Notes: a model not told the origin generated them from the sequence alone. Positions 3,474-15,115 are shown, counted from the first letter of the stretch. The stretch is 64,000 nt of DNA from an uncultured Rhodospirillales bacterium (GCA_903828515.1 CAIKMD010000007.1:1272706-1336705), one strand, 5' to 3'. Made by a program: numbers and translations.

Positions 3474-4462
3474 TGAAAATTGCCCAGTTCAAGACGCCCG
3501 GTGCGCCCTCGGTGCTCGAATATATGGAAGTGCCGATCCCGCCGCTGAAAGACGGCGAAGTCTTGGTGAAGGCACAGGCGATCGGCGTCGGCATGCCGGA
3601 TATCCTGATCCGGCAAGGCAAGTACAACTGGATGCCGCCGTTGCCGGCGGCGCCGGGTACCGAAATGAGCGGCACGATCGAACAGGTCGGGCCGGGCACG
3701 ACGCTCAAGGTGGGGCAGCGCGTCGTGGTTTCGGCGCGTGAGCGCGAGCATCGCGGCGGCTGCTATGCGGAATACAACGCGACGCCGGAATCATCGGTCT
3801 ATGCATTGCCGGACGGTGCCGATATGGACGAGGCCGCCGCGCTTGCCAATTACCAGGTCGCGTTTCACCTGCTTTACGACTGCGTCCATGTCAAAAAAGG
3901 CCAGAGCGTTTTGGTCTATGGCGCGGCGGGGGGATGCGGGAGCGCGCTCGTCGATCTGGCGCGCGGCGCCGGGCTCGAGGTCATCGGCATTTGCAGCGGT
4001 GCGGAGAAGGCGGCGTTCGTCAAAAGCCTCGGCGCGGCGCATGTCATCGACCGCGGTGCCGGCAATCTGTTCGACGCGATTAATATGACATTGGGCCGCA
4101 AGGGGGTCGATATCGTGTTCGATATCGTCGGCGGTAAGGATTTTACCCGCAATTTCGAGTTGCTCGGCCGCTACGGAACATTAGTTAGCTATGGTCAACT
4201 AGGTGGACCGGTCCAGGGCGACGTCTTCGCCGCGATGCGCAAGCAGACCGCGAGGAATCTCGCCCTGCGGACCTTCACGATGCATATCTTCGATCACTGG
4301 CCGGAGCGCCGCAAAGAGGGCATGCGGTGGCTGATCGAGCGCCTCGGCACGCATGAAATCAAGCCGCGCATCCACGGGCATCTGCCGTTGGCCCAGGCAC
4401 GCCAGGCACACGAACTGTTCGAGAGCGGCGCGGTCATGGGCAAGCTGCTGCTGAAGCCCTGA
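3473..4462 (+). CDS. Zinc-type MDR alcohol dehydrogenase / quinone oxidoreductase
   Basis: A 329-residue medium-chain dehydrogenase/reductase. It has an N-terminal GroES-like domain (GTEMSGTIEQVGPG near residue 62), a Rossmann domain with the NAD(P)-binding segment VYGAAGGCGSALV near residues 148-160, and the family C-terminus GAVMGKLLLKP. It lacks the structural-zinc cysteine cluster, so it looks like the quinone-oxidoreductase (zeta-crystallin) branch. A GTG at 3470 and the ATG at 3473 are both possible; ATG is preferred, with GGAGGAG about eight bases upstream. It overlaps the hpnG stop and may be co-transcribed with the hopanoid genes, but no hopanoid role is known for this family. The substrate is unknown. 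Confidence 0.85.
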   Translation: MKIAQFKTPGAPSVLEYMEVPIPPLKDGEVLVKAQAIGVGMPDILIRQGKYNWMPPLPAAPGTEMSGTIEQVGPGTTLKVGQRVVVSAREREHRGGCYAEYNATPESSVYALPDGADMDEAAALANYQVAFHLLYDCVHVKKGQSVLVYGAAGGCGSALVDLARGAGLEVIGICSGAEKAAFVKSLGAAHVIDRGAGNLFDAINMTLGRKGVDIVFDIVGGKDFTRNFELLGRYGTLVSYGQLGGPVQGDVFAAMRKQTARNLALRTFTMHIFDHWPERRKEGMRWLIERLGTHEIKPRIHGHLPLAQARQAHELFESGAVMGKLLLKP

Positions 4463-4539: not shown

Positions 4540-7500
4540 GTGAGTTCGCATAGTCGCTGGTTCGGCATCGTCGCGTTGATGGCGGTCTGGCTGCCGCGTA
4601 TCGCCATCGCCGAGACGGCGCCGACCGCCGCGACCTTCGTTCCGCCGCCGCGGACGATCGACGACATCACCGCGATTCTCGATCAGGAAAAACCCGACAA
4701 GACGAAGATCGCGCAGCTGACGGCGACCGCCGACGCGCAACCGCGGGCCGGTATCGACGATGCGGCGCGCGTGGCCTTCCTGACCGATCGGTGCGAGGCC
4801 GCGCTGACGCTGGGGCGGGTTACCCAGGCGCTGGCCGATTGCCATCAGGCCGTCGACCTTGCCCAGAGCCGCAACAAAAGCATGCCGGAGATCATTTCAG
4901 CGTTGATCGATCTGTCGCGGGTGCAGCGACGTGCCGGCGATCTCGTCGAGATGAACAAAACCGTGCAGGCGGCCTTGAGCGCCGTTTCGGGCAGCCGGAT
5001 TCGACAGGGCTTTATGTTCACGGCCTATCGCGACTTCACCTTCGACGCGGTACGTGCGGGAAATTTCGATCAGGCCAATCAGTGGCTCGCCAAGCTCGAC
5101 GACACATTGCGCGACTCGTACAATTGGAAAGGGGCGAACGGCTATCAAAACTGGTTTCGCTATTTCGTCGATTACGCCCATGCCGTGGTGCTCGACAATC
5201 GCGGAAATTTCGCGCAGGCCGAGCCGCTTTATCGCCGATCCATCGCCGAGGTGCGCCAGGCCGAAGTGGATACGGTCGGCTTGGTGAATACGGTGGGCGC
5301 GGGCACGCCGCCGCGTGGAAGCTACACCACTGCGGCCGATCTGGAGCAGGGTCAACTTGCGTTTGCCATCGCGCGGCGAGGGCGTGTGATCGAGGGCGAA
5401 GTCGAGGCGCGGCAGGCGCTGCTCAGTCAGTTGAAGCTGCACGGACGCTATACGTCCGAGACGATGTCGGCGGTGACGACACTCGACCAGATCATCGGCA
5501 TGCAAGGCCGCTTCGCCGAAGCGGAAAAACTCGCCCATACCGCCGTCGATACCTATCAGACGCTGGGCACGGCGCCGAATTCGTCGGTTTTGCTGCTGGC
5601 GCGTGAAACGCTGGCTGCGAATCTCGTCGCGCAAAACAAGATCAAGGAGGCACTTGCCGAGTACGACCTGATCAAACAAGGGGTCGGCGACAACGCCAAA
5701 TTGACCGCCCTCTTTCTCCATGGCAGTCCCGATTATACCATCGCCATGCTGTCCGGGGGACAGGCGCAACTCGGGCTGACCGCCGCCGAGGCGATTTTCG
5801 CGGCGCGCTCGAAGGTGTCCGGCGAGGGAAGCTATCAGACCGCCGAGGCGCAGGGGTTGCGTGGGGCGGCGCTCGCGGCGACCGGAAATCTGGCCGCGGC
5901 GCAGGATGCCTATGCGAAATCGGTGCCGATCCTGTTGGCGGCGTCGCGTCATAACGACGACGAGGAAGACGATTCGTCGCAAGGCTTCCAGGCGGGACGG
6001 CTGAAATTCATTCTCGAATCCTATCTGGGCGTGTTGGCCAATTCGAAGACCGCCGAGGCGGGCGCCGAGGCGTTCCGTATTGCCGACGCGGTGCGCGGAC
6101 AGAAAGTCCAGCGCGCGGTGGCGGCGGCGGCGGCGCGGACCAATGTGAAAGACCCGGCGCTGGCCGACGTCATCCGTCAGGATCAGGACGCGCAGCGTCA
6201 GGTCACGGCGCTCGATGCGCTGGTGGCGGGCAATCTCGCGATCTCGTCCGATCAGCGCGACGAAGCCGCGATGAAGAAAATGCGCGACGACATCGACAAG
6301 CTGAAGGCGACGCGCGCCACATTGCGCGATCAGATCCGGAAAAAATTTCCCGAATACGCCGAGCTGATCGATCCGCGTCCGGCGACGGTCGAGCAGACGC
6401 AAAAGGCGCTCGGTCCGGACGAGGCGTTGTTCTCGGTCTATGTCGGTAACGGCAAGACCTATGTCTGGGCGGTGCCGAAATCGGGTCCGGTCTCGTTCGC
6501 GATTTCGCCGTTGTCGCCCGCCGATGTCGACAAGGCGGTGAAGGATCTGCGCAAGACGCTCGATCCCGATGCCTCGACCGCCGGCGACATCCCGGCCTTC
6601 GACGTGGCCACGTCCTACAAGCTCTATGCCGGTCTCCTCGAACCGGTGAAGGCCGGCTGGCAGAACGCCAAGAGCCTGCTGATTGTCCCGCACGGCTCGT
6701 TGGGTCAGTTGCCGTTCGGCCTGCTGGCGACGCAAAACGTCAAACCCGCCGCCGATCAGGCCGGGCAGCCCTTGTTCACGGGTTATCGCGCGGTGCCGTG
6801 GCTGATCCGTCAGGTCGCGGTGACGCAACTGCCATCGGTCACGTCGCTGACGACACTGCGCGCGACGCCGGCCACGACCGCACAGCGCAAGCCCTTCATC
6901 GGTTTCGGCGATCCGTGGTTCAGCAAGAAGGAAGAAGCACAGGCGATCCGCGAGCAGGGTCAGATGCTCGCGTTGCAGATTGCCGGCGGCGGCCTCGTCG
7001 CGATGCGCAAGGCGCCGGTCAAGCTGCGCAGTGCCCCGAAGACCGAGGGCGTCAACAGCGCCGATCTGGCGGAATTGCCGCGCCTGCCGGATACCGCCGA
7101 AGAGGTAAGGCTGGTTGCCGAAGCGCTGAAGGCCGATTCCGCCAAGGACGTTTATCTGGGTGCGCAGGCCAACGAGCAGATCGTGCGCACGATGAAACTC
7201 GACGATCGCCGCGTCATCATGTTCGCGACGCACGGCCTGATCCCCGGCGATCTCGATGGGCTGACCGAGCCGGCGCTTGCCTTGTCGGCGCCTGACGTGG
7301 CGAAGGTGCCCGGCGACGGGCTGTTGACCGTGAGCGAGATATTGGGGCTTCGCCTCAACGCCGATTGGGTGGTGCTGTCGGCCTGCAATACGGCGTCGGG
7401 CAACGGCGCCGGCGCCGAAGCGGTGTCGGGCCTCGGCCTCGCGTTCTTCTATGCCGGGTCGCGCGCGCTGCTGGTCTCGAACTGGCCGGTCGAGACGACA

Positions 7501-7707
7501 TCGGCCCGCATGATCACGACCGAGTTGTTCAAGCGCGAAGCAGCGACACCGGGGCTGACCCGTGCCGAATCCCTGCGTCAGGCGATGCTCGCGCTGATGG
7601 ATGGACCGGGCCTCCTCGATCCGGCGACCCAGAAGCCGGTCTATTCCTATGCGCACCCGATTTTCTGGGCGCCGTTCTCGCTGGTCGGCGACGGCGGCGC
7701 GGGGTAA
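4540..7707 (+). CDS. Secreted TPR-CHAT protein (putative caspase-like peptidase)
   Basis: A 1055-residue protein with an N-terminal signal peptide (hydrophobic GIVALMAVWL, cleavage near AIAETA), a long alpha-helical TPR-like region (about residues 50-480), a charged helical linker and a C-terminal CHAT domain (about 620-1050). The putative catalytic dyad is visible: His898 in FATHGLI and Cys949 in VLSACNTAS, followed by GLGLAFFYAGSRALLVSNWP, the CHAT signature. CHAT proteins are caspase/separase-related proteases. Those with TPRs and signal peptides are common in proteobacteria but mostly uncharacterised. GTG 4540 was chosen because GGGAGGA lies 7-13 bases upstream and the signal peptide then starts at residue 1. 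It precedes the AT-rich envelope cassette, and a decayed copy of its tail lies at about 14.2 kb. Confidence 0.9.
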   Translation: MSSHSRWFGIVALMAVWLPRIAIAETAPTAATFVPPPRTIDDITAILDQEKPDKTKIAQLTATADAQPRAGIDDAARVAFLTDRCEAALTLGRVTQALADCHQAVDLAQSRNKSMPEIISALIDLSRVQRRAGDLVEMNKTVQAALSAVSGSRIRQGFMFTAYRDFTFDAVRAGNFDQANQWLAKLDDTLRDSYNWKGANGYQNWFRYFVDYAHAVVLDNRGNFAQAEPLYRRSIAEVRQAEVDTVGLVNTVGAGTPPRGSYTTAADLEQGQLAFAIARRGRVIEGEVEARQALLSQLKLHGRYTSETMSAVTTLDQIIGMQGRFAEAEKLAHTAVDTYQTLGTAPNSSVLLLARETLAANLVAQNKIKEALAEYDLIKQGVGDNAKLTALFLHGSPDYTIAMLSGGQAQLGLTAAEAIFAARSKVSGEGSYQTAEAQGLRGAALAATGNLAAAQDAYAKSVPILLAASRHNDDEEDDSSQGFQAGRLKFILESYLGVLANSKTAEAGAEAFRIADAVRGQKVQRAVAAAAARTNVKDPALADVIRQDQDAQRQVTALDALVAGNLAISSDQRDEAAMKKMRDDIDKLKATRATLRDQIRKKFPEYAELIDPRPATVEQTQKALGPDEALFSVYVGNGKTYVWAVPKSGPVSFAISPLSPADVDKAVKDLRKTLDPDASTAGDIPAFDVATSYKLYAGLLEPVKAGWQNAKSLLIVPHGSLGQLPFGLLATQNVKPAADQAGQPLFTGYRAVPWLIRQVAVTQLPSVTSLTTLRATPATTAQRKPFIGFGDPWFSKKEEAQAIREQGQMLALQIAGGGLVAMRKAPVKLRSAPKTEGVNSADLAELPRLPDTAEEVRLVAEALKADSAKDVYLGAQANEQIVRTMKLDDRRVIMFATHGLIPGDLDGLTEPALALSAPDVAKVPGDGLLTVSEILGLRLNADWVVLSACNTASGNGAGAEAVSGLGLAFFYAGSRALLVSNWPVETTSARMITTELFKREAATPGLTRAESLRQAMLALMDGPGLLDPATQKPVYSYAHPIFWAPFSLVGDGGAG

Positions 7708-8160
7708 AGAGCAATTTTGATCTGCCGTCCCAGAGACCGACTTATCGTCGTTGGCCCCCACTAGAACTATTTTCCCCGAATCCCTCTCGTGCGACCGCTG
7801 ATAAGTAGCCGCCTGCACCATCTTTAGTTGCAAGTTTTTGTGCGGCATGTTTCAGTTACTGCGCTGAAGAAGCGACCGGGGGAAATGAAATGTATCGGCT
7901 GAGTGCTTGGGGAACGCGATTGGCGATCCGCCATAAGCATACTTATCGGTTGTACATCTCAGCAAGATTCTCAAACCGTCCCCAATCAACAGCGTCGCAG
8001 CAGAGCTAAATGGCCGACCGTTTCTGTTGCTCGAAAATATCGACGTAAAATCAGTTTCAGAATGTGACACCGATATCACGTTGATCTGAGACGTGATGGT
8101 GTACGGCAAAGTGAATCCGGCATTCACGCCGACGACTAAATACAGAACCTTGGGGAAAGC
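7708..8160. other. 453-base gap with no supported gene; probable leader/promoter region of the envelope cassette
   Basis: The base composition changes here from GC-rich to clearly AT-richer. No convincing gene was found. A 91-codon open frame on the minus strand (7852-8127) has no recognisable domain and no good ribosome site. A plus-strand open stretch of about 50 codons (about 7940-8090) lacks a start and may be decayed coding DNA. The sequence TTGGGGAAAGC just before 8161 is the only plausible ribosome site for the next gene. Confidence 0.5.
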
Positions 8161-9690
8161 ATGGCCAATTTAGCGAGAGCAACTCTTCTGATCGGCCTAG
8201 CACTTTTCTCGCAACGCCTAATACTCGCTGATGCTGTAGCCCAGAACGCGGTTTCCAATCCTTTCGGCAATGTACTCAATAGTCTTGGTGCGCTTGGTAA
8301 CACCCTTACCTCGCCTAAGGCGACCGTACCCGCGTCGCCGCCACCGCCCGCCAATTCGATGGGTACGGCATCAACGAACCAACCCCCGATCGTTCGCAAA
8401 GCAGATGGGTATAGCAAGTTCGACGACTACCTGAAGGTTGGCGACTATTCCAACGCGAAGCAGTTCGCCATGACCTCGGGTGGCGTCAACGCCGACGGCA
8501 GCGCGCGCGACTTGTTATGGGCTTTGGAGGCTGGCGCGGTGCTGCTTTACGCAGGTGATGCGAATACCGCGGTTCACGTTTTAGATAACGCAGAAAAGTT
8601 GATGGGAGATCGCGACAATTCGACCTTATCTGGTCAATACAATTATACGACTTACGATGCCATCATGGACAATTCGTACACGGCGTTGGCGTTCTTTCTT
8701 GTCGGAAATTTTAGCGACGCGCGCGTGGAATTTAATCGAGTGCGCGATCGCCAGGCGCGCGCCGAAGAGCAGTTTCGAAAGGAAAAGGAAAAGCTCGACC
8801 AAAGTACTCAAGCAGCAGAAAAGCAGCCCACTAACGTGAATCTTGCAGGCACATTGCAGGAGGCGTTGAATAGCCCTCAATACAAAGACGAACAGGCCGA
8901 GTTGCAGAAATATGCAAACTACAAGCCGTTCATCAATCCATTTGCTGGATATTTAACAGGAATTTTTCTGGTCAACTCCGCAGAAAGTGGTGATGCTGAG
9001 AAAGCTCGCACAGAGTTTGTTCGCGTACGCGACATGGTTGGTAAGAACCCGACGATCCAAGCGGATCTTGCGCTTTCCGAGACCTTCAAAGGCGACCACA
9101 AACCTAGAACCTGGGTGATATTCGAAGATGGACAGGCGCCGATTTTAACGGAAAATCGGATCACCATTCCTGTTCCCATCATTGGAACGACGAACTACGC
9201 AAGTACCATTACGATCGCATTCCCGCGAATGGTTTTTAATCCATCGGCATATCAAACATTGATCGTGACGGCGGGCTCACAGCGGGCGCAGACCTATTCT
9301 GTCGGCAGCTTCGAAAGCGTGGCGGCAACCGAATTTCAAGCGCGGTTGCAAGGCATCGTTCAACGCAGCGTCGTTGAAGCTGCGGTCAAAATTGGAATTC
9401 AATACGGAGCCGATCAGGTTAAGGGCATTGCCGGCACCCTGCTGAAACTCGGTACTGCCGTGGTTGCCAATGTGTCGTCGGCCGACACGCGCTCGTGGAC
9501 GGCCTTGCCAAAAGATTTTCAAGCAGCGCGTATCGATACACCCGCGGATGGCGTCATTCATGTGAGTGCACCAAATGGCCAAGAGCTTGGTTCGGTAAAA
9601 GTGGGGGCCGACCATTCTAGTATCGTCTACGTCAAGGCAGTGAGTCCGGGCGGCAAAATCTCGACGCAAGTCTTTTCTTTAATGCACTGA
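8161..9690 (+). CDS. COG3014-like exported TPR-type protein, first gene of the envelope cassette
   Basis: A 509-residue exported protein: signal peptide with core TLLIGLALFS and cleavage near ADAVA, then a Pro/Ala-rich linker (residues about 55-75) and helical repeats. The segments NSYTALAFFLVGNFSDARVE and AGYLTGIFLVNSAESGDAEK resemble the paired TPR-like units of COG3014 proteins. In gammaproteobacteria that family sits beside LpoB, and an LpoB-like gene follows here 22 bases later. A charged coiled stretch (about residues 195-225, rich in K/E/Q) separates the two helical units. The C-terminal half is beta-rich and unrecognised. No lipobox cysteine is present. Codon use is AT-richer than in flanking genes, suggesting separate ancestry. 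Function is unknown; a periplasmic scaffold is a reasonable inference. Confidence 0.75.
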   Translation: MANLARATLLIGLALFSQRLILADAVAQNAVSNPFGNVLNSLGALGNTLTSPKATVPASPPPPANSMGTASTNQPPIVRKADGYSKFDDYLKVGDYSNAKQFAMTSGGVNADGSARDLLWALEAGAVLLYAGDANTAVHVLDNAEKLMGDRDNSTLSGQYNYTTYDAIMDNSYTALAFFLVGNFSDARVEFNRVRDRQARAEEQFRKEKEKLDQSTQAAEKQPTNVNLAGTLQEALNSPQYKDEQAELQKYANYKPFINPFAGYLTGIFLVNSAESGDAEKARTEFVRVRDMVGKNPTIQADLALSETFKGDHKPRTWVIFEDGQAPILTENRITIPVPIIGTTNYASTITIAFPRMVFNPSAYQTLIVTAGSQRAQTYSVGSFESVAATEFQARLQGIVQRSVVEAAVKIGIQYGADQVKGIAGTLLKLGTAVVANVSSADTRSWTALPKDFQAARIDTPADGVIHVSAPNGQELGSVKVGADHSSIVYVKAVSPGGKISTQVFSLMH

Positions 9691-9712
9691 ATATTTTAGT
9701 GGAGGTTCGGCA

Positions 9713-10315
9713 ATGTTGAGGCGCCTATTTTTTTCCGCAATGCTGCTTGCGCTCGCGGGGTGTGCCGCACAATCGAACACGGTCCTGATCAATCAGAAAA
9801 ACGATACCAGTGCGGTCGGTGTAGGCCTCGACATGCGCGATTTCGAGGCGGCGGCCGATGCCTCGGTGCAATCGATGCTTGCTTCACCCGCGATGACGAA
9901 GCCATCCGGAGGACGGTACGTAATGGCTCTTTCGCGTATGACCAACGACACGATGCAGCGTATCGATACGGACCTGCTCGTAAAAAAGATCAGGGTTGAT
10001 TTGCTGAATTCAGGCAAGGTGGTGATGACGACAGCGGTGGGGGCTACCGTGGAGGATCCGCTTGCGATGCAGACGCGGGAGTTACGGGGGTCCCAGGAAT
10101 TCAATCAAGCGCAAGTTGCGAAGACCGGTCAGATGGTTGCGCCGGATCTCAGTCTGTCGGGAAAGATCATTCAACAAAACACGCGTCTGGGCGACGGGAC
10201 ACAACGGATCGAATATTCTTTCCAACTTTCCGTAACGGATATTCGAACCGGCTTGGCGATTTGGGAAGGTGAGAAACCAATTTCAAAGCTAACGACGGGA
10301 GCCGCAGCATGGTAG
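9713..10315 (+). CDS. LpoB-like outer-membrane lipoprotein (penicillin-binding-protein activator family)
   Basis: A 200-residue lipoprotein: signal peptide ending in the lipobox LAGC with the lipidated cysteine at residue 17. It is followed by the LpoB-type core: GVGLDMRDFEAAAD near the start, a middle segment GGRYVMALSRMTNDT, and a late SFQLSVTDIRTGLAIWEGE that matches the last strand and helix of the family. Characterised LpoB stimulates the peptidoglycan synthase PBP1b from the outer membrane. Alphaproteobacteria usually lack a canonical LpoB-PBP1b pair, so the partner here is unclear. GGAGG lies about eight bases before the ATG. Its end overlaps the next start by seven bases, showing tight coupling in the cassette. 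Confidence 0.82.
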   Translation: MLRRLFFSAMLLALAGCAAQSNTVLINQKNDTSAVGVGLDMRDFEAAADASVQSMLASPAMTKPSGGRYVMALSRMTNDTMQRIDTDLLVKKIRVDLLNSGKVVMTTAVGATVEDPLAMQTRELRGSQEFNQAQVAKTGQMVAPDLSLSGKIIQQNTRLGDGTQRIEYSFQLSVTDIRTGLAIWEGEKPISKLTTGAAAW

Positions 10316-11658
10316 GCATTCGCCAGATATTTGCTTTGACGGCTCTGATCGCGCTGGCTCTCACGGCACCCTCATATAGTCAAGACGCTCAAAAGACTAA
10401 TGACGCTGTTGACGTCGCCGCTAAGGTCGCTACCGATCCGCCGCCTTCCGTTGGAGAATTGATCGATGAAAAGATCCAGGACTTCATCGACAAATCCGGT
10501 TTTGGTGCACGCGAACGTCGTGGTGAATTGTTTGTCCTTCATGGAACAGCCCCAATTAATCTACCTGCAAGCAATCCAGACTGGGTTAAGGCGCGTGAAA
10601 TCGCCTATGCCGATGCTTTGATCGAAGCGCAAGCCGCCTTTGTCGCCGAGCGGTTTACCTTTCAGACAACGAACACCGTCAAGGACTTCTATAAAGCGGG
10701 TACCGACGAACCCCCGCCCTATATTGACGGACGTTCGACGAACGGAGCCGTGACCGTGCTCAGAAAGTTGCTTGGTGTCGTCAACGGCAAACTCGATAAG
10801 CAATTGCTGGACATGGGCATCGATCCGAAAGAATACGCTAAAGCTCCCGAGCCGCAGAAGACAGCGTTGTTAACAAACCATCTAAAGATCCAAAACATCA
10901 AAAAATCCTTCGGTGATATGATCGGACTTCTACCGGTCATGACATTCGAAGCCAATGATGGCGCGCACAACTTCCGCGTGGGGGTTGTTGCCGTCGTGTC
11001 ATCGTCGATGAAGGATTTTGCGAAACAAGTGCTCTCCGCGCAGGGCGGGTTTCAACCGAATTCGGAACGTGCACAGGACCTCACGAAGCTATATGCGGAC
11101 AAAAAGCAACTTCTTAGTGATTTTGGGGTTCGGCGGCTCTACGACGAGCGTGGATTGCCGGTGATCGTGTCGTTTGCCCAATGGGGGTCTTCCTACTCTG
11201 GAACAGATGCCGCGATGGCGGCGACCTACGAGGATGCAGCCCGCCGCCAGGCCGAAGCGGTCGCGGATGGGCAAATTTCGGATTTCCTTGCTGCCAATGT
11301 CGCATATTCCGACACGAGTGAAGTGGGGCAGGAGCAAGATCGTATCGCCTCTAGCTTGCCGGACACAGTATCAACCGCCGAAACGGTAAAAATCGTCGAT
11401 GCGTTAACAAGAACAATCAAACGCACATCGAGTGCGAAAATTACTGGTCTTCACACGCTCTACCAGTGGACAGGAAGACATCCGGCGTCCAAGACACCGA
11501 TTATCGGCGTGATACGGATTTGGTCGGCTTCCGCGGAGCAGGCCATCCGGGGGTTGGATAGCCCCAAAAAGGCTGATGACGCAGCTTCGCCGTCCGCTAC
11601 GAAGGGAACCCCCGGAGTTACGCAAGGGCGCCAACTAATGAACAAGGATGACTTTTGA
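10309..11658 (+). CDS. Exported protein resembling the DUF6844 family, third gene of the envelope cassette
   Basis: A 449-residue exported protein with signal peptide (core IFALTALIALALTA, cleavage near SYSQ). After it comes a conserved-looking region with IDEKIQDFIDKSG, then GTAPINLPASNPDWVKARE, and a helical segment rich in alanine and acidic residues. From memory, this pattern (modified-start helix, 'FxxxGTA' strand, then an A/E-rich helix) fits proteins annotated DUF6844, which occur next to LpoB and CsgG-like genes; I could not check this. The C-terminus is low-complexity and polar. No catalytic motif is visible. It overlaps both neighbours in the operon (7 bases upstream, 4 bases downstream). 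AT-rich codon choice matches the rest of the cassette. Confidence 0.68.
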   Translation: MVGIRQIFALTALIALALTAPSYSQDAQKTNDAVDVAAKVATDPPPSVGELIDEKIQDFIDKSGFGARERRGELFVLHGTAPINLPASNPDWVKAREIAYADALIEAQAAFVAERFTFQTTNTVKDFYKAGTDEPPPYIDGRSTNGAVTVLRKLLGVVNGKLDKQLLDMGIDPKEYAKAPEPQKTALLTNHLKIQNIKKSFGDMIGLLPVMTFEANDGAHNFRVGVVAVVSSSMKDFAKQVLSAQGGFQPNSERAQDLTKLYADKKQLLSDFGVRRLYDERGLPVIVSFAQWGSSYSGTDAAMAATYEDAARRQAEAVADGQISDFLAANVAYSDTSEVGQEQDRIASSLPDTVSTAETVKIVDALTRTIKRTSSAKITGLHTLYQWTGRHPASKTPIIGVIRIWSASAEQAIRGLDSPKKADDAASPSATKGTPGVTQGRQLMNKDDF

Positions 11659-12839
11659 CTAGGTTAAAAGCGGCGGTCCGGTCCGCTGTTGTAGCGTCGT
11701 TGTTTTTTGTTGCACCAAATTCAATGGCGACGACGATCGAGACCGACGCGACCGGCTCCGGGTCGACGCGGGAAGACGCAATTACCGCGGCACTGGTTTC
11801 CGCCATTCAACAAGTCACCGGGGTTGCGATCACGGCAAACCAAATGACGCAAGTTGAGGCTGGATCTGTGACGGTGGGCGACGATCAAAAAGTCAGAATT
11901 ACGGAAGAGCATCAAACCGAGACAAAGCGGCTCACGAATGGTGTCGTGAGGAGCTACAAAATAGTCGACGTGGAAGCGTCGGGCGTAACGTTTGTTGCCC
12001 ATCTCTTTGTCGACATTGAAAAATTCGAACCCGTAGGTGGCGATGAAAATCGCAGAAGAATCGTTGTTTCAGTGTTTGCCGGTAACCGGAGCTATGGCGG
12101 ACGGTTAAGGGACCAGATCGCCTCCAATCTTGCGCGTGCGCGGCGCTTTTCTGTTCTCGATCGCTCAAATGACGCGGCATACGATCGGGAAATGGCCATG
12201 CTCAATGATGCGCCGGCAATCGAGCGAGTTCGTATTGGACAGGTTCTTGGCGCAGATTACGTCGTCGTCGGTACAATTCGTGACGCAAACGTACAGCGTA
12301 CCGATCGAACAATTTCGTTAACGGGAGAAAGAGTTCAGACTGCGTCCGCAAACGTTGACATTGATTTCTCGGTCTTGGAAATCGCGACGCGACAGATTAA
12401 ATGGGCGGATTCAGTCCGCCTAGGCGCTGGCGATGCATCAATCAATGGCTTGATCGATAATGCAGCCGCGAAGATCGCGGATGAGATCACGCAGACAATT
12501 TACCCGATGCGGTTGATCAAGTTCGATGATCCAGGCGCGTTGATCGTCAATCAAGGCGGTGGAACAGTGCATTCCGGGCAACAATTTCGAGCCATGTTGT
12601 TGGGCGAGCCCTTGATTGATCCAATCACCAAGGAATCGCTTGGACAAGTGGAACGGGAAGTCGGAATCATCGTGGTTGAACGCGTGGAACCGAAGGTTTC
12701 TTATGCTCGCTTGGTGAAGGGGAGTCTTCCCCCGCCGAACAGCGATATAATCTTGCGTAAAATTGTCGAGCCGGCCCGCAAACCCCAGAAGCCGCAAGAC
12801 GTTGCCCCGCCGGTAGTTAAAATACCGGGAGATCCGTAA
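11655..12839 (+). CDS. CsgG/HfaB-like exported protein with FlgT-like N-terminus
   Basis: A 394-residue exported protein (signal peptide core VVASLFFVA, cleavage after SMA). Residues about 30-120 resemble the FlgT N-terminal unit: an opening beta strand, then GSTREDAITAALVSAIQQVTG. Residues about 130-290 look like the CsgG/LpoB fold: RRIVVSVFAG, GLRDQIASNLARA-type helix, FSVLDRSND, GQVLGADYVVVGTIRDA and a strand SANVDIDFSVLEIATRQ. CsgG/HfaB proteins form or anchor secretion channels for curli or holdfast; there is no lipobox here, so a pore role is uncertain. Start is TTG 11655 overlapping the previous stop (TTGA), with AAGGA six bases upstream. A short Pro/Lys tail closes the protein. It is the last gene of the cassette. 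Confidence 0.75.
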   Translation: MTRLKAAVRSAVVASLFFVAPNSMATTIETDATGSGSTREDAITAALVSAIQQVTGVAITANQMTQVEAGSVTVGDDQKVRITEEHQTETKRLTNGVVRSYKIVDVEASGVTFVAHLFVDIEKFEPVGGDENRRRIVVSVFAGNRSYGGRLRDQIASNLARARRFSVLDRSNDAAYDREMAMLNDAPAIERVRIGQVLGADYVVVGTIRDANVQRTDRTISLTGERVQTASANVDIDFSVLEIATRQIKWADSVRLGAGDASINGLIDNAAAKIADEITQTIYPMRLIKFDDPGALIVNQGGGTVHSGQQFRAMLLGEPLIDPITKESLGQVEREVGIIVVERVEPKVSYARLVKGSLPPPNSDIILRKIVEPARKPQKPQDVAPPVVKIPGDP

Positions 12840-13090: not shown

Positions 13091-14116
13091 ATGAAGAGGT
13101 CAATCATGGTGACGCGTGGATTATTGCGTTGGGCTGTCGTTGCGCTTGGCGTGGCGACATTGGCGGCTGAGTCGGCACGGGCGGACTCGGTCCCGGTGAC
13201 CCTGGCGCTGCCGTCGGTCAACATCTCGTTCACGGCGCTTTATCTCGCCGACACGTTGCACCTCTGGGCCGACCAGGGCCTCGACGTGAAAATCATCGTC
13301 TTGCCGGGCATCGGCACGAACAACGCCGTCATCAACGGCTCGGTCCAATTTGCCATCGGCTCGTCCGACGCGATCACCCGCGCCTGGGCGCATGGCCAGC
13401 ATATGCAGGCGATCGGCGCCGGCGTCAAAAAGACCATGGAATGGGTGATGATCCGCAAGGAAGTCGCCGAGGCCGCGCATTTCGATCCGACCGCGCCGCT
13501 GAGCGAGCGCGCGAAAATTCTCAAAGGCCGCACGATCGCGATTACCGGCCTCGGCTCGCTGCCGGATGCCGTGTTGAAATCAGTCGCGGCCGAAGCGGGC
13601 ATCGGCCCGAGCGATATCGAGACGCCGACGATGCTGCCGCCCGAAATCATGGCGGCATGGAAAACCAAGCGGATCGACGGGTTTTCGAACGCGATGCCGT
13701 ATGCGCAGCAGGTGATGGCCGATGGCTCGGGCGTGATGGTCTCCGACCCGACCAAGGGCGAGCCGACCAAGTTCTTTCCGATTGCGGCGTCGATCGTGAC
13801 CGTGATGGCCGATTACTGCCCGGCGCATGCCGATCTCTGCACCAAGTTCATGAACGGCATGACCCAGGGCATCAATATCGTGCTGACCGATCGCGAGAAA
13901 GCCATGGGCGAAATGAAAAAGCGCTTTCCCGCTTATGACGATACCGTCCTCACCATGGCTTACGACGCGCTGAAGGATGCCGAAAATTACCCGCCGCGCG
14001 TCGATCCGAAGGCGATGGAGAACGGCGATCGCATGAATATCGCCGCCGGCTTCCTGAAGCCCGAGGAAAAGCTCACCGACTATGCGCCGCTGATCGACAA
14101 CAGCTACATCAAGTAG
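13091..14116 (+). CDS. ABC-type solute-binding protein, NMT1/TauA-like (orphan)
   Basis: A 341-residue periplasmic binding protein: signal peptide (core RWAVVALGVATLAA, cleavage near ARADS), then the NMT1/SsuA/TauA pattern with VTLALPSVNISFTALYLAD, a 'GSVQFAIGSSDAI' gate segment and ALKDAENYPPRVD near the end. The family binds sulfonates, nitrates, pyrimidine precursors, riboflavin or aromatic acids for ABC importers. No permease or ATPase gene lies nearby. Composition returns to the GC-rich host type, unlike the cassette before it. An ATG at 13086 gives only a two-codon frame, so ATG 13091 with its strong ribosome site is the start. Ligand unknown. Confidence 0.85.
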   Translation: MKRSIMVTRGLLRWAVVALGVATLAAESARADSVPVTLALPSVNISFTALYLADTLHLWADQGLDVKIIVLPGIGTNNAVINGSVQFAIGSSDAITRAWAHGQHMQAIGAGVKKTMEWVMIRKEVAEAAHFDPTAPLSERAKILKGRTIAITGLGSLPDAVLKSVAAEAGIGPSDIETPTMLPPEIMAAWKTKRIDGFSNAMPYAQQVMADGSGVMVSDPTKGEPTKFFPIAASIVTVMADYCPAHADLCTKFMNGMTQGINIVLTDREKAMGEMKKRFPAYDDTVLTMAYDALKDAENYPPRVDPKAMENGDRMNIAAGFLKPEEKLTDYAPLIDNSYIK

Positions 14117-14132
14117 CGCCGCGCCGGAGTGA

Positions 14133-14277
14133 CTGACGCATGCCGAGGCATTGTGCCAGGCGATGCTCGCGCTGATGGATGGATTGGCTACCGTTTGATC
14201 CGGCGATGCAAAAGCTGGTGTATTTCTACGCCCAACCGATCTTCTGGGCGTCGTCTCCTCGCCGTTCAGCGATGTGA
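14133..14277 (+). pseudogene. Decayed 3' end of a second CHAT-protein gene
   Basis: This gap matches the last ~45 codons of the CHAT gene at 4540-7707. Conceptual reading gives LTHAEALCQAMLALMDG, corresponding to LTRAESLRQAMLALMDG in the intact gene, then a stop at 14196. After a one-base shift it gives DPAMQKLVYFYAQPIFWA, corresponding to DPATQKPVYSYAHPIFWA. At the DNA level a 24-base run (CAGGCGATG... to ATGGATGGA, from 14157 and 7580) appears identical; several other stretches differ, so this is an old, frameshifted copy. Only the tail remains; the segment directly before it is the stop of the binding-protein gene. Confidence 0.85.
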
Positions 14278-14283
14278 GTAAGC

Positions 14284-15039
14284 CTACAATTTAAGTAACG
14301 GAAATTCTTGCTCCGACAGCGCTGCCTTATCATTCATCAGGTAGGCCAAATGCCGGCGAATTATCTCGTCCGTGATTTCAAAGACCTTGGCGCGTTCCTC
14401 GTCGGTAATTAGCGATGGCTTCCCGTGTCTTGGAAAATCAGCATGCGATTTCACATAATCTATTACGGTGCGGTCGACGCAAAGCGTTAAGTTTAATCGA
14501 GGCCAGACTACATTTTCTTTCTCGTTCGGGTTTTCCTTCATGGCCTGCATCATTGCCTCGATTGCGCGATAGCAAAAGAATCCTGTAGCCACCGGGACCC
14601 GCATCGCCTCCCTAAAATCGGCTAATGCCATTTGGGCTGATAAATTCTTACCGACGACCTCAACCAACTTGCCATCAATCTCGCCAGACCGATTTTTGCG
14701 TCGTTCACTTAAAACTGGGATATTGATTCCAAATACATGCCAATCGTCCGCGTCTCTGCTTCTTGCCGATATGATATCGACGTCGAGGCTGAGAGCTGCG
14801 TCATAGCCAATGATATCGGTTATGTGCCTAACGCAATTCTCAGCGACATTGCGGAGGTTGAACAAATCGATCTCACCCTCTGTTACATCAAGATCGACTT
14901 GAACCTGACCGACGTGAATAACCACTCGATAATTGCAGGTCGCACCAACAAATGTTTTTACAGTGCCCATTAACGGTTCCGAAAACGACGTCGGAAATCG
15001 TTCTGGAAGCACGCGGCCGAAGAACGTCCAGCTTGTCAT
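14284..15039 (-). CDS. Hypothetical protein of AT-rich composition
   Basis: About 251 residues, no recognised domain. It looks cytoplasmic: no signal peptide or membrane span. It opens with a beta-rich part (TFVGATCNYRVVIHVGQVQV), then a middle with two acidic stretches, then a helical C-terminal half (FREAMRVPVATGFFCYRAIE) and a charged tail. AT-rich codon use contrasts with the GC-rich formaldehyde dehydrogenase next to it and resembles the envelope cassette. Start is uncertain: ATG 15039 has AGAGGAG 12 bases upstream; a TTG at 15048 has the same site only three bases away. It ends a few bases from the CHAT remnant, so it may have arrived with that DNA. The C-terminal pattern (a segment around residues 160-190 ending in a fixed-length helix) hints at a stand-alone cargo or defence-type gene, but nothing supports a function. 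Confidence 0.6.
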   Translation of the reverse strand: MTSWTFFGRVLPERFPTSFSEPLMGTVKTFVGATCNYRVVIHVGQVQVDLDVTEGEIDLFNLRNVAENCVRHITDIIGYDAALSLDVDIISARSRDADDWHVFGINIPVLSERRKNRSGEIDGKLVEVVGKNLSAQMALADFREAMRVPVATGFFCYRAIEAMMQAMKENPNEKENVVWPRLNLTLCVDRTVIDYVKSHADFPRHGKPSLITDEERAKVFEITDEIIRRHLAYLMNDKAALSEQEFPLLKL

Positions 15040-15115
15040 GTCTGTCAACCACTCCTCTGAGGAACGACATGAACCAAGCTAACAGCCTTTGTTAGTGCTG
15101 TCGGTTTCGGCGGTT

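Follow-up and report, generated by a model that had tools for sequence, protein, structure and literature searches.

An AT-rich envelope gene cassette with a FlgT-like protein, probably acquired horizontally, in an uncultured Rhodospirillales bacterium

Introduction

The proteins considered here resemble components of several described systems. LpoB acts on PBP1B via the UB2H domain, and a housekeeping locus of gammaproteobacteria encodes LpoB together with YcfL (DUF1425) and a COG3014-type protein. FlgT forms or joins the periplasmic H ring of the flagellum, in Vibrio as part of the FlgO-FlgP-FlgT set. CsgG, PelC, and TolB share a fold that recurs in the middle domain of the FlgT-like protein treated below; CsgG itself has a lipobox cysteine as its first mature residue and transmembrane hairpins forming a 36-stranded barrel.

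A further point of comparison is the predicted operon FTT1537c-FTT1540c of Francisella tularensis, parts of which have been published separately. FTT_1540c is annotated as LpoB (PMC8149597), FTT_1539c is a recurring antigen and is found among the vesicle antigens of Francisella (PMC10963506, PMC4207810), and FTT_1538c was found in Francisella vesicles (PMC6795709). A transposon insertion in FTT1538c caused a modest loss of virulence, with possible polar effects (PMC4696196). In the papers found, this operon is never described as a FlgT/LpoB cassette, DUF6844 is not mentioned, and COG3014 does not appear in the text.

The window analyzed here is a stretch of 64,000 nucleotides from an uncultured Rhodospirillales bacterium. 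A first-pass annotation had proposed that it carries a horizontally acquired envelope-assembly or pore-forming system of four exported proteins, possibly controlled by the cleavage activity of an adjacent CHAT protein, and had stated that no system of this make-up was known to have been described. The latter statement agrees with the literature found, in which only parts of the Francisella version appear: every part of the cassette belongs to a known family, and the set as a system was not found described. The analysis supports horizontal acquisition of the four AT-rich genes, which represent a conserved, little-studied envelope gene set with a scattered occurrence among bacteria, and the CHAT gene looks like an unrelated neighbour.

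Gene layout and protein families

The region between positions 4540 and 14272 of the window comprises the following features:

4540..7707, + strand: TPR-CHAT protein gene (GTG start, 1055 aa, signal-like N-terminus; Pfam CHAT E 1.2e-47); judged to be a neighbour outside the system
8161..9690, + strand: COG3014-like protein gene (509 aa, GC 0.525, extended signal-like N-terminus without a lipobox)
9713..10315, + strand: LpoB-type lipoprotein gene (200 aa, lipobox LAGC, C-terminal Trp)
10309..11658, + strand: DUF6844 protein gene (449 aa, tandem-duplicated fold suggested, C-terminal -DDF behind a low-complexity linker)
11655..12839, + strand: FlgT-like protein gene (394 aa, TTG start, three domains, no lipobox)
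13091..14116, + strand: NMT1/SsuA-type substrate-binding protein gene, the right-hand neighbour of the cassette, of native composition
14132..14272, + strand: decayed 3' end of a CHAT gene (141 nt, broken frame; 76.6% identity, E 1.3e-21)

The CHAT gene and the four cassette genes were all found where the first-pass annotation had placed them. Its description of four overlapping frames holds for LpoB/DUF6844 (7 nt) and DUF6844/FlgT-like (4 nt), while the COG3014-like and LpoB genes are separated by a gap of 22 nt. Nor does the cassette lie directly behind the CHAT gene, as a gap of 453 nt with a sharp change in GC content intervenes. The signal peptides of the CHAT and cassette proteins were assessed by eye. 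A PADLOC search of these five proteins gave no defence match, a defence role being rejected on this basis, and no relatives of the cassette were found in viral contigs. Beyond the decayed CHAT piece lies an orphan gene (14284-15048, - strand, GC 0.48) that converges on the cassette side. Its matches all stay below threshold; among them is a type II restriction enzyme model, weakly matched.

The product of the first cassette gene (8,161) matches no Pfam family. When its relatives are combined into a profile, the C-terminal two thirds align with the COG3014-type protein encoded beside housekeeping ycfL-lpoB (97.1%, E 7.5e-11), so that its designation as COG3014-like is upheld by this neighbour of ycfL-lpoB rather than by a COG model. 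The lipobox that is missing from the window copy is present by pattern in 11 of 13 COG3014-like relatives. The second product is an LpoB-like lipoprotein, as previously proposed, and exceeds the cut-offs of both Pfam (E 1.4e-38, 132.6 bits; cut-off 22.3) and TIGR02722 (138.9; cut-off 110.55). The cassette LpoB proteins end in Trp without exception (20/20) and form a subfamily distant from the solved LpoB chains, none of which was matched at E up to 0.01.

The third product is a DUF6844 protein well above the Pfam cut-off (E 7.4e-24, 84.1 bits; cut-off 27), again in agreement with the earlier assignment. Its family includes F. tularensis FTT_1539c (profile E 3.9e-51), whose structure is deposited as a ‘hypothetical protein’ (PDB 4QVR) and is matched by the fold of the window protein over 293 residues (Z 25.1, rmsd 4.8). 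Within the family profile, the first half can be aligned to the second (probability 90%, E 1.8e-6), an indication of tandem duplication. Lpp20 and Tip-alpha were considered as relatives and rejected because the fold matches are too weak (Z 5.1 and Z 4.5, respectively). Behind a variable low-complexity linker, the DUF6844 chain of each of the 25 distinct loci terminates in an aromatic residue (23 F, 1 Y, 1 W); no terminal-residue rule was seen in the COG3014 and FlgT-like proteins. The aromatic ends of DUF6844 and LpoB may serve as a docking signal, a role suggested by their sequence conservation.

The FlgT-like protein

The last product (11,655) had been designated CsgG/FlgT-like, and only the FlgT part of this designation is retained. 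Its Pfam matches to FlgT_M (4.3e-4) and LpoB (6.3e-4) both remain below the cut-off. When compared by hhalign with a reference of five FlgT proteins from four of the cassette genomes, a profile of 14 relatives aligns with 97.2% probability and E 2.9e-11, columns 39-359 of 424 corresponding to FlgT 51-377 of 400. An AlphaFold model (mean pLDDT 72, pTM 0.58) has FlgT 3w1e as its top fold match (Foldseek 9e-16; Z 15.7, 197 residues, rmsd 15.2), followed by 8z5n of the flagellar LPHT ring (Z 15.1, 220 residues, rmsd 11.3); of the model, residues 26-284 are covered by 3w1e and residues 132-371 by 8z5n. The hhalign comparison and these two structures yield the complete three-domain architecture of FlgT (N, M, C). 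The high rmsd to 3w1e points to a different domain placement in the model, which is uncertain given the moderate model confidence and this high rmsd of the full-length match. The sequence profile additionally matches the C-terminal part of a LysM-domain, TsaP-type entry (6ve2, E 6.2e-8).

Matches to TolB, PelC, and CsgG are confined to the middle domain (CsgG 4q79, Z 11.5; CsgG 6lqh, Z 11.7; PelC, Z 13.6), that to CsgG covering about 135 residues. The protein thus has the same middle-domain fold as CsgG/PelC/TolB-type proteins, but differs from them by the absence of a lipobox, a loose pattern of which occurs in one of the 14 relatives, and by its extra N- and C-terminal FlgT domains. Since the FlgT match spans three domains, the CsgG match is confined to the middle one, and a lipobox is lacking, the protein is called FlgT-like and membership in the CsgG family is rejected. 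The structure prediction, with FlgT as best fold, likewise lends no support to the CsgG-type pore that had been envisaged for it.

Distribution and probable acquisition of the gene set

DUF6844 was detected in one of 43 genomes of the order, one of 289 sampled alphaproteobacteria, and five of 398 genomes of the phylum, the source genome being counted in each figure, and in eight of 369 genomes of a gammaproteobacterial class sample (the class being inferred from named members). Including the window, 25 distinct loci were collected. The 24 others belong to Alpha- and Gammaproteobacteria and one Verrucomicrobiota MAG and stem from an Azospirillum plasmid, ten regions of searched genomes, and 14 named contigs (a Rhodopila MAG, Marinobacterium, an Opitutales MAG, a Pseudomonas MAG, Stutzerimonas, Vibrio, Grimontia, a Vibrionaceae MAG, Alteromonas, and two more MAGs among them), with one contig listed twice (L017 and L054) counted once. 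A FlgT-like gene accompanies DUF6844 in 25/25 loci, with one intervening gene in L018. LpoB and COG3014 are both present in 20 of the 25 (19 of 24 besides the window), including L019, whose LpoB is listed under its overlapping frame; five loci have neither, in at least one case owing to a contig end (L021). The genes are usually arranged as COG3014-(YcfL)-LpoB-DUF6844-FlgT-like, giving five genes where YcfL occurs. Two AT-rich MAG contigs show a reduced form without LpoB and COG3014, in which the FlgT-like gene precedes DUF6844 (L057 2072-4685, L058 8611-11221). The flanks are unrelated among the loci and encode, e.g. PriA, UvrB, AcrB, a GGDEF/EAL protein, or a solute-binding protein.

Three Francisella-like loci (L015, L016, L024) carry all four cassette genes. 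The predicted F. tularensis operon resembles the window cassette in its DUF6844 protein (by profile) and its LpoB (by annotation); FTT1538c would be the FlgT-like protein, FTT1538c and FTT1537c being assigned by gene order. Unlike in the window, COG3014 is placed last in these low-GC Francisella-like genomes, and identity is low (about 25%). The antigen and vesicle data from Francisella are compatible with an outer-membrane-associated set of proteins.

The four genes had been described as visibly richer in AT than their neighbours, and the comparison with sampled genome sequence bears this out. The cassette (8,161-12,839) has a GC content of 53.2%, and each of 1,240 equally long windows (4,679 bp) taken from 400 kb sampled from the source genome lies above it (mean 0.637, sd 0.020, minimum 0.546). 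GC3 amounts to 0.55-0.62 in the four cassette genes versus 0.80 in the CHAT and 0.82 in the substrate-binding protein gene, both of which have a composition ordinary for the genome. At 17 other loci, the GC difference between cassette and flanks does not exceed about 5 points; the drop of about 10 points seen here is therefore not simply inherent to these genes. The anomalous GC of the four genes, next to a CHAT gene of normal composition, supports acquisition of the former and not of the latter. The proposed horizontal acquisition of a four-gene envelope unit also agrees with the rarity of DUF6844 in the order and among alphaproteobacteria. In a tree of the four joined proteins, the window groups with Azospirillum and Rhodopila (support 100).

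The cassette site and the CHAT gene

The TPR-CHAT protein, read from the GTG at 4540, has the intact dyad described for it, His898 (FATHG) and Cys949 (LSACN). The genome contains a second CHAT gene (L059 7301-10645), 60% identical to that of the window, which is likewise followed by a gene for an NMT1-type substrate-binding protein (L059 10802-11809). The substrate-binding proteins behind the two copies are barely similar (E 0.15), no clean empty site is demonstrable, and a unit of CHAT and substrate-binding protein genes was thus dismissed as the empty form of the site. The decayed piece at 14132-14272 matches the end of the intact CHAT gene by blastn, so that the cassette and the substrate-binding protein gene lie between two CHAT 3' ends. 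These ends may be the scar of a recombination between CHAT copies. No insertion-sequence ends were recognized at the cassette, with neither long terminal repeats nor a tRNA gene in evidence.

The nearest relative (G016) retains the block amine oxidase-SHC-hpnG-ADH, and synteny on the left ends after the alcohol dehydrogenase gene that terminates at 4462. CHAT, cassette, and right flank are all absent from the 20 kb read, and the ends of the insertion cannot be fixed from this genome for that reason. As a variable region, the site can account for CHAT and cassette being neighbours even if no functional relation exists between them.

Possible functions of the gene set

The idea of a secreted CHAT protein acting on at least one cassette protein by cleavage or activation draws on the adjacency of the genes on one strand and on the intact dyad. 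It is hardly credible in view of the gap and GC break between them, the native composition of the CHAT gene, and the distribution of both partners. When all open frames of the 25 distinct loci were searched with a CHAT profile of 24 sequences, it matched in the window only, i.e. the examined flanks of the 24 other loci are devoid of CHAT (0/24). The four families accordingly co-occur elsewhere without the gene, the very finding named beforehand as speaking against CHAT control. CHAT relatives occur in 17 of the 43 genomes of the order, versus the single genome with DUF6844, hence the two do not travel together, and the second CHAT gene of the source genome has no cassette. Secretion of the CsgG or PelC type, with the last protein as an outer-membrane pore exporting DUF6844 or another protein, has in its favour the CsgG/PelC/TolB fold of the middle domain. 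It is nevertheless improbable, given that FlgT is the best match both by sequence and by fold, that the lipobox is missing from the window protein and almost all relatives, and that the cassette contains no gene for an amyloid-like substrate.

Regulation of peptidoglycan synthesis would make the module an extended form of the COG3014-YcfL-LpoB locus, with a class A PBP as the target of activation. The cassette COG3014, YcfL, and LpoB proteins are indeed homologous to those of the housekeeping locus, to which the cassette adds the DUF6844 and FlgT-like genes, and five genomes with UB2H have no LpoB other than that of the cassette, so that a PBP role is possible there. This reading is unlikely for the module as a whole. 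A PBP1B-like UB2H domain is present in seven of 14 cassette genomes tested; the other seven show no UB2H or short matches in frames of ~1,125-1,220 aa, probably Mfd. As half of these genomes lack the domain, PBP1B activation cannot be the shared function of the cassette. The cassette LpoB is kept in six of these seven, among them the source genome (98.7% complete), where no UB2H domain was matched and LpoB as a PBP1B activator was discarded for want of this partner; Vibrio sonorensis, moreover, has a separate housekeeping LpoB beside that of the cassette. An accessory ring for the flagellum or a type IV pilus is suggested by the similarity to FlgT, by the match to the TsaP-type entry, and by the presence of FlgI in 13 of 14 cassette genomes, but appears very unlikely, because one genome (G739) carries the cassette without FlgI, several retain a separate true FlgT, and the flanks are non-flagellar in the window and most loci, flagellin-like genes occurring near the cassette of G400. 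The FlgT-like protein does not conform to the pattern of a motor part encoded with flagellar genes. It shares all three domains with FlgT of the Vibrio H ring, while the cassette, unlike FlgO-FlgP-FlgT, is not tied to flagellar genes. Equating DUF6844 with FlgP and LpoB with FlgO was abandoned, as profile comparison revealed no similarity, and the analogy to the Vibrio set is therefore limited to FlgT.

Since the module needs no CHAT, flagellum, or PBP1B, a role in the envelope or in vesicles is more likely than secretion through a CsgG-like pore. We hold with medium confidence that the cassette is a horizontally acquired envelope module whose products probably make an outer-membrane-associated periplasmic complex, with a FlgT-like ring or scaffold and DUF6844 as partner. 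LpoB would presumably reside in the outer membrane as a lipoprotein, as would the COG3014-type protein in most relatives. The FlgT-like protein would form or join a periplasmic ring or scaffold, by analogy with FlgT in the H ring, and DUF6844 would be the periplasmic partner, which may dock via its conserved C-terminal aromatic tail. The module comprises four genes, or five with YcfL. A bolder version, offered tentatively and as rather doubtful, takes the FlgT-like, LpoB, COG3014, and DUF6844 proteins for a widespread, mobile, flagellum-independent relative of the H ring; this would form a ring under the outer membrane, held by the aromatic tails (Trp in LpoB, mostly Phe in DUF6844), and serve an undescribed envelope or vesicle function. 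If true, it would be an example of a flagellar ring part reused outside the flagellum.

The gene set is conserved over Alpha- and Gammaproteobacteria and at least one verrucomicrobial MAG and includes one solved structure, while no function is described in the papers found. The placement of its last protein with FlgT leads to a testable ring hypothesis and sets the cassette apart from both curli-type secretion and PBP1B activation. At two loci, very large surface proteins adjoin the cassette, Ig-like or VWA/cadherin-like ones, in Azospirillum (L004 19305-31188) and Alteromonas (L054 1869-7433), a proximity that may be due to chance.
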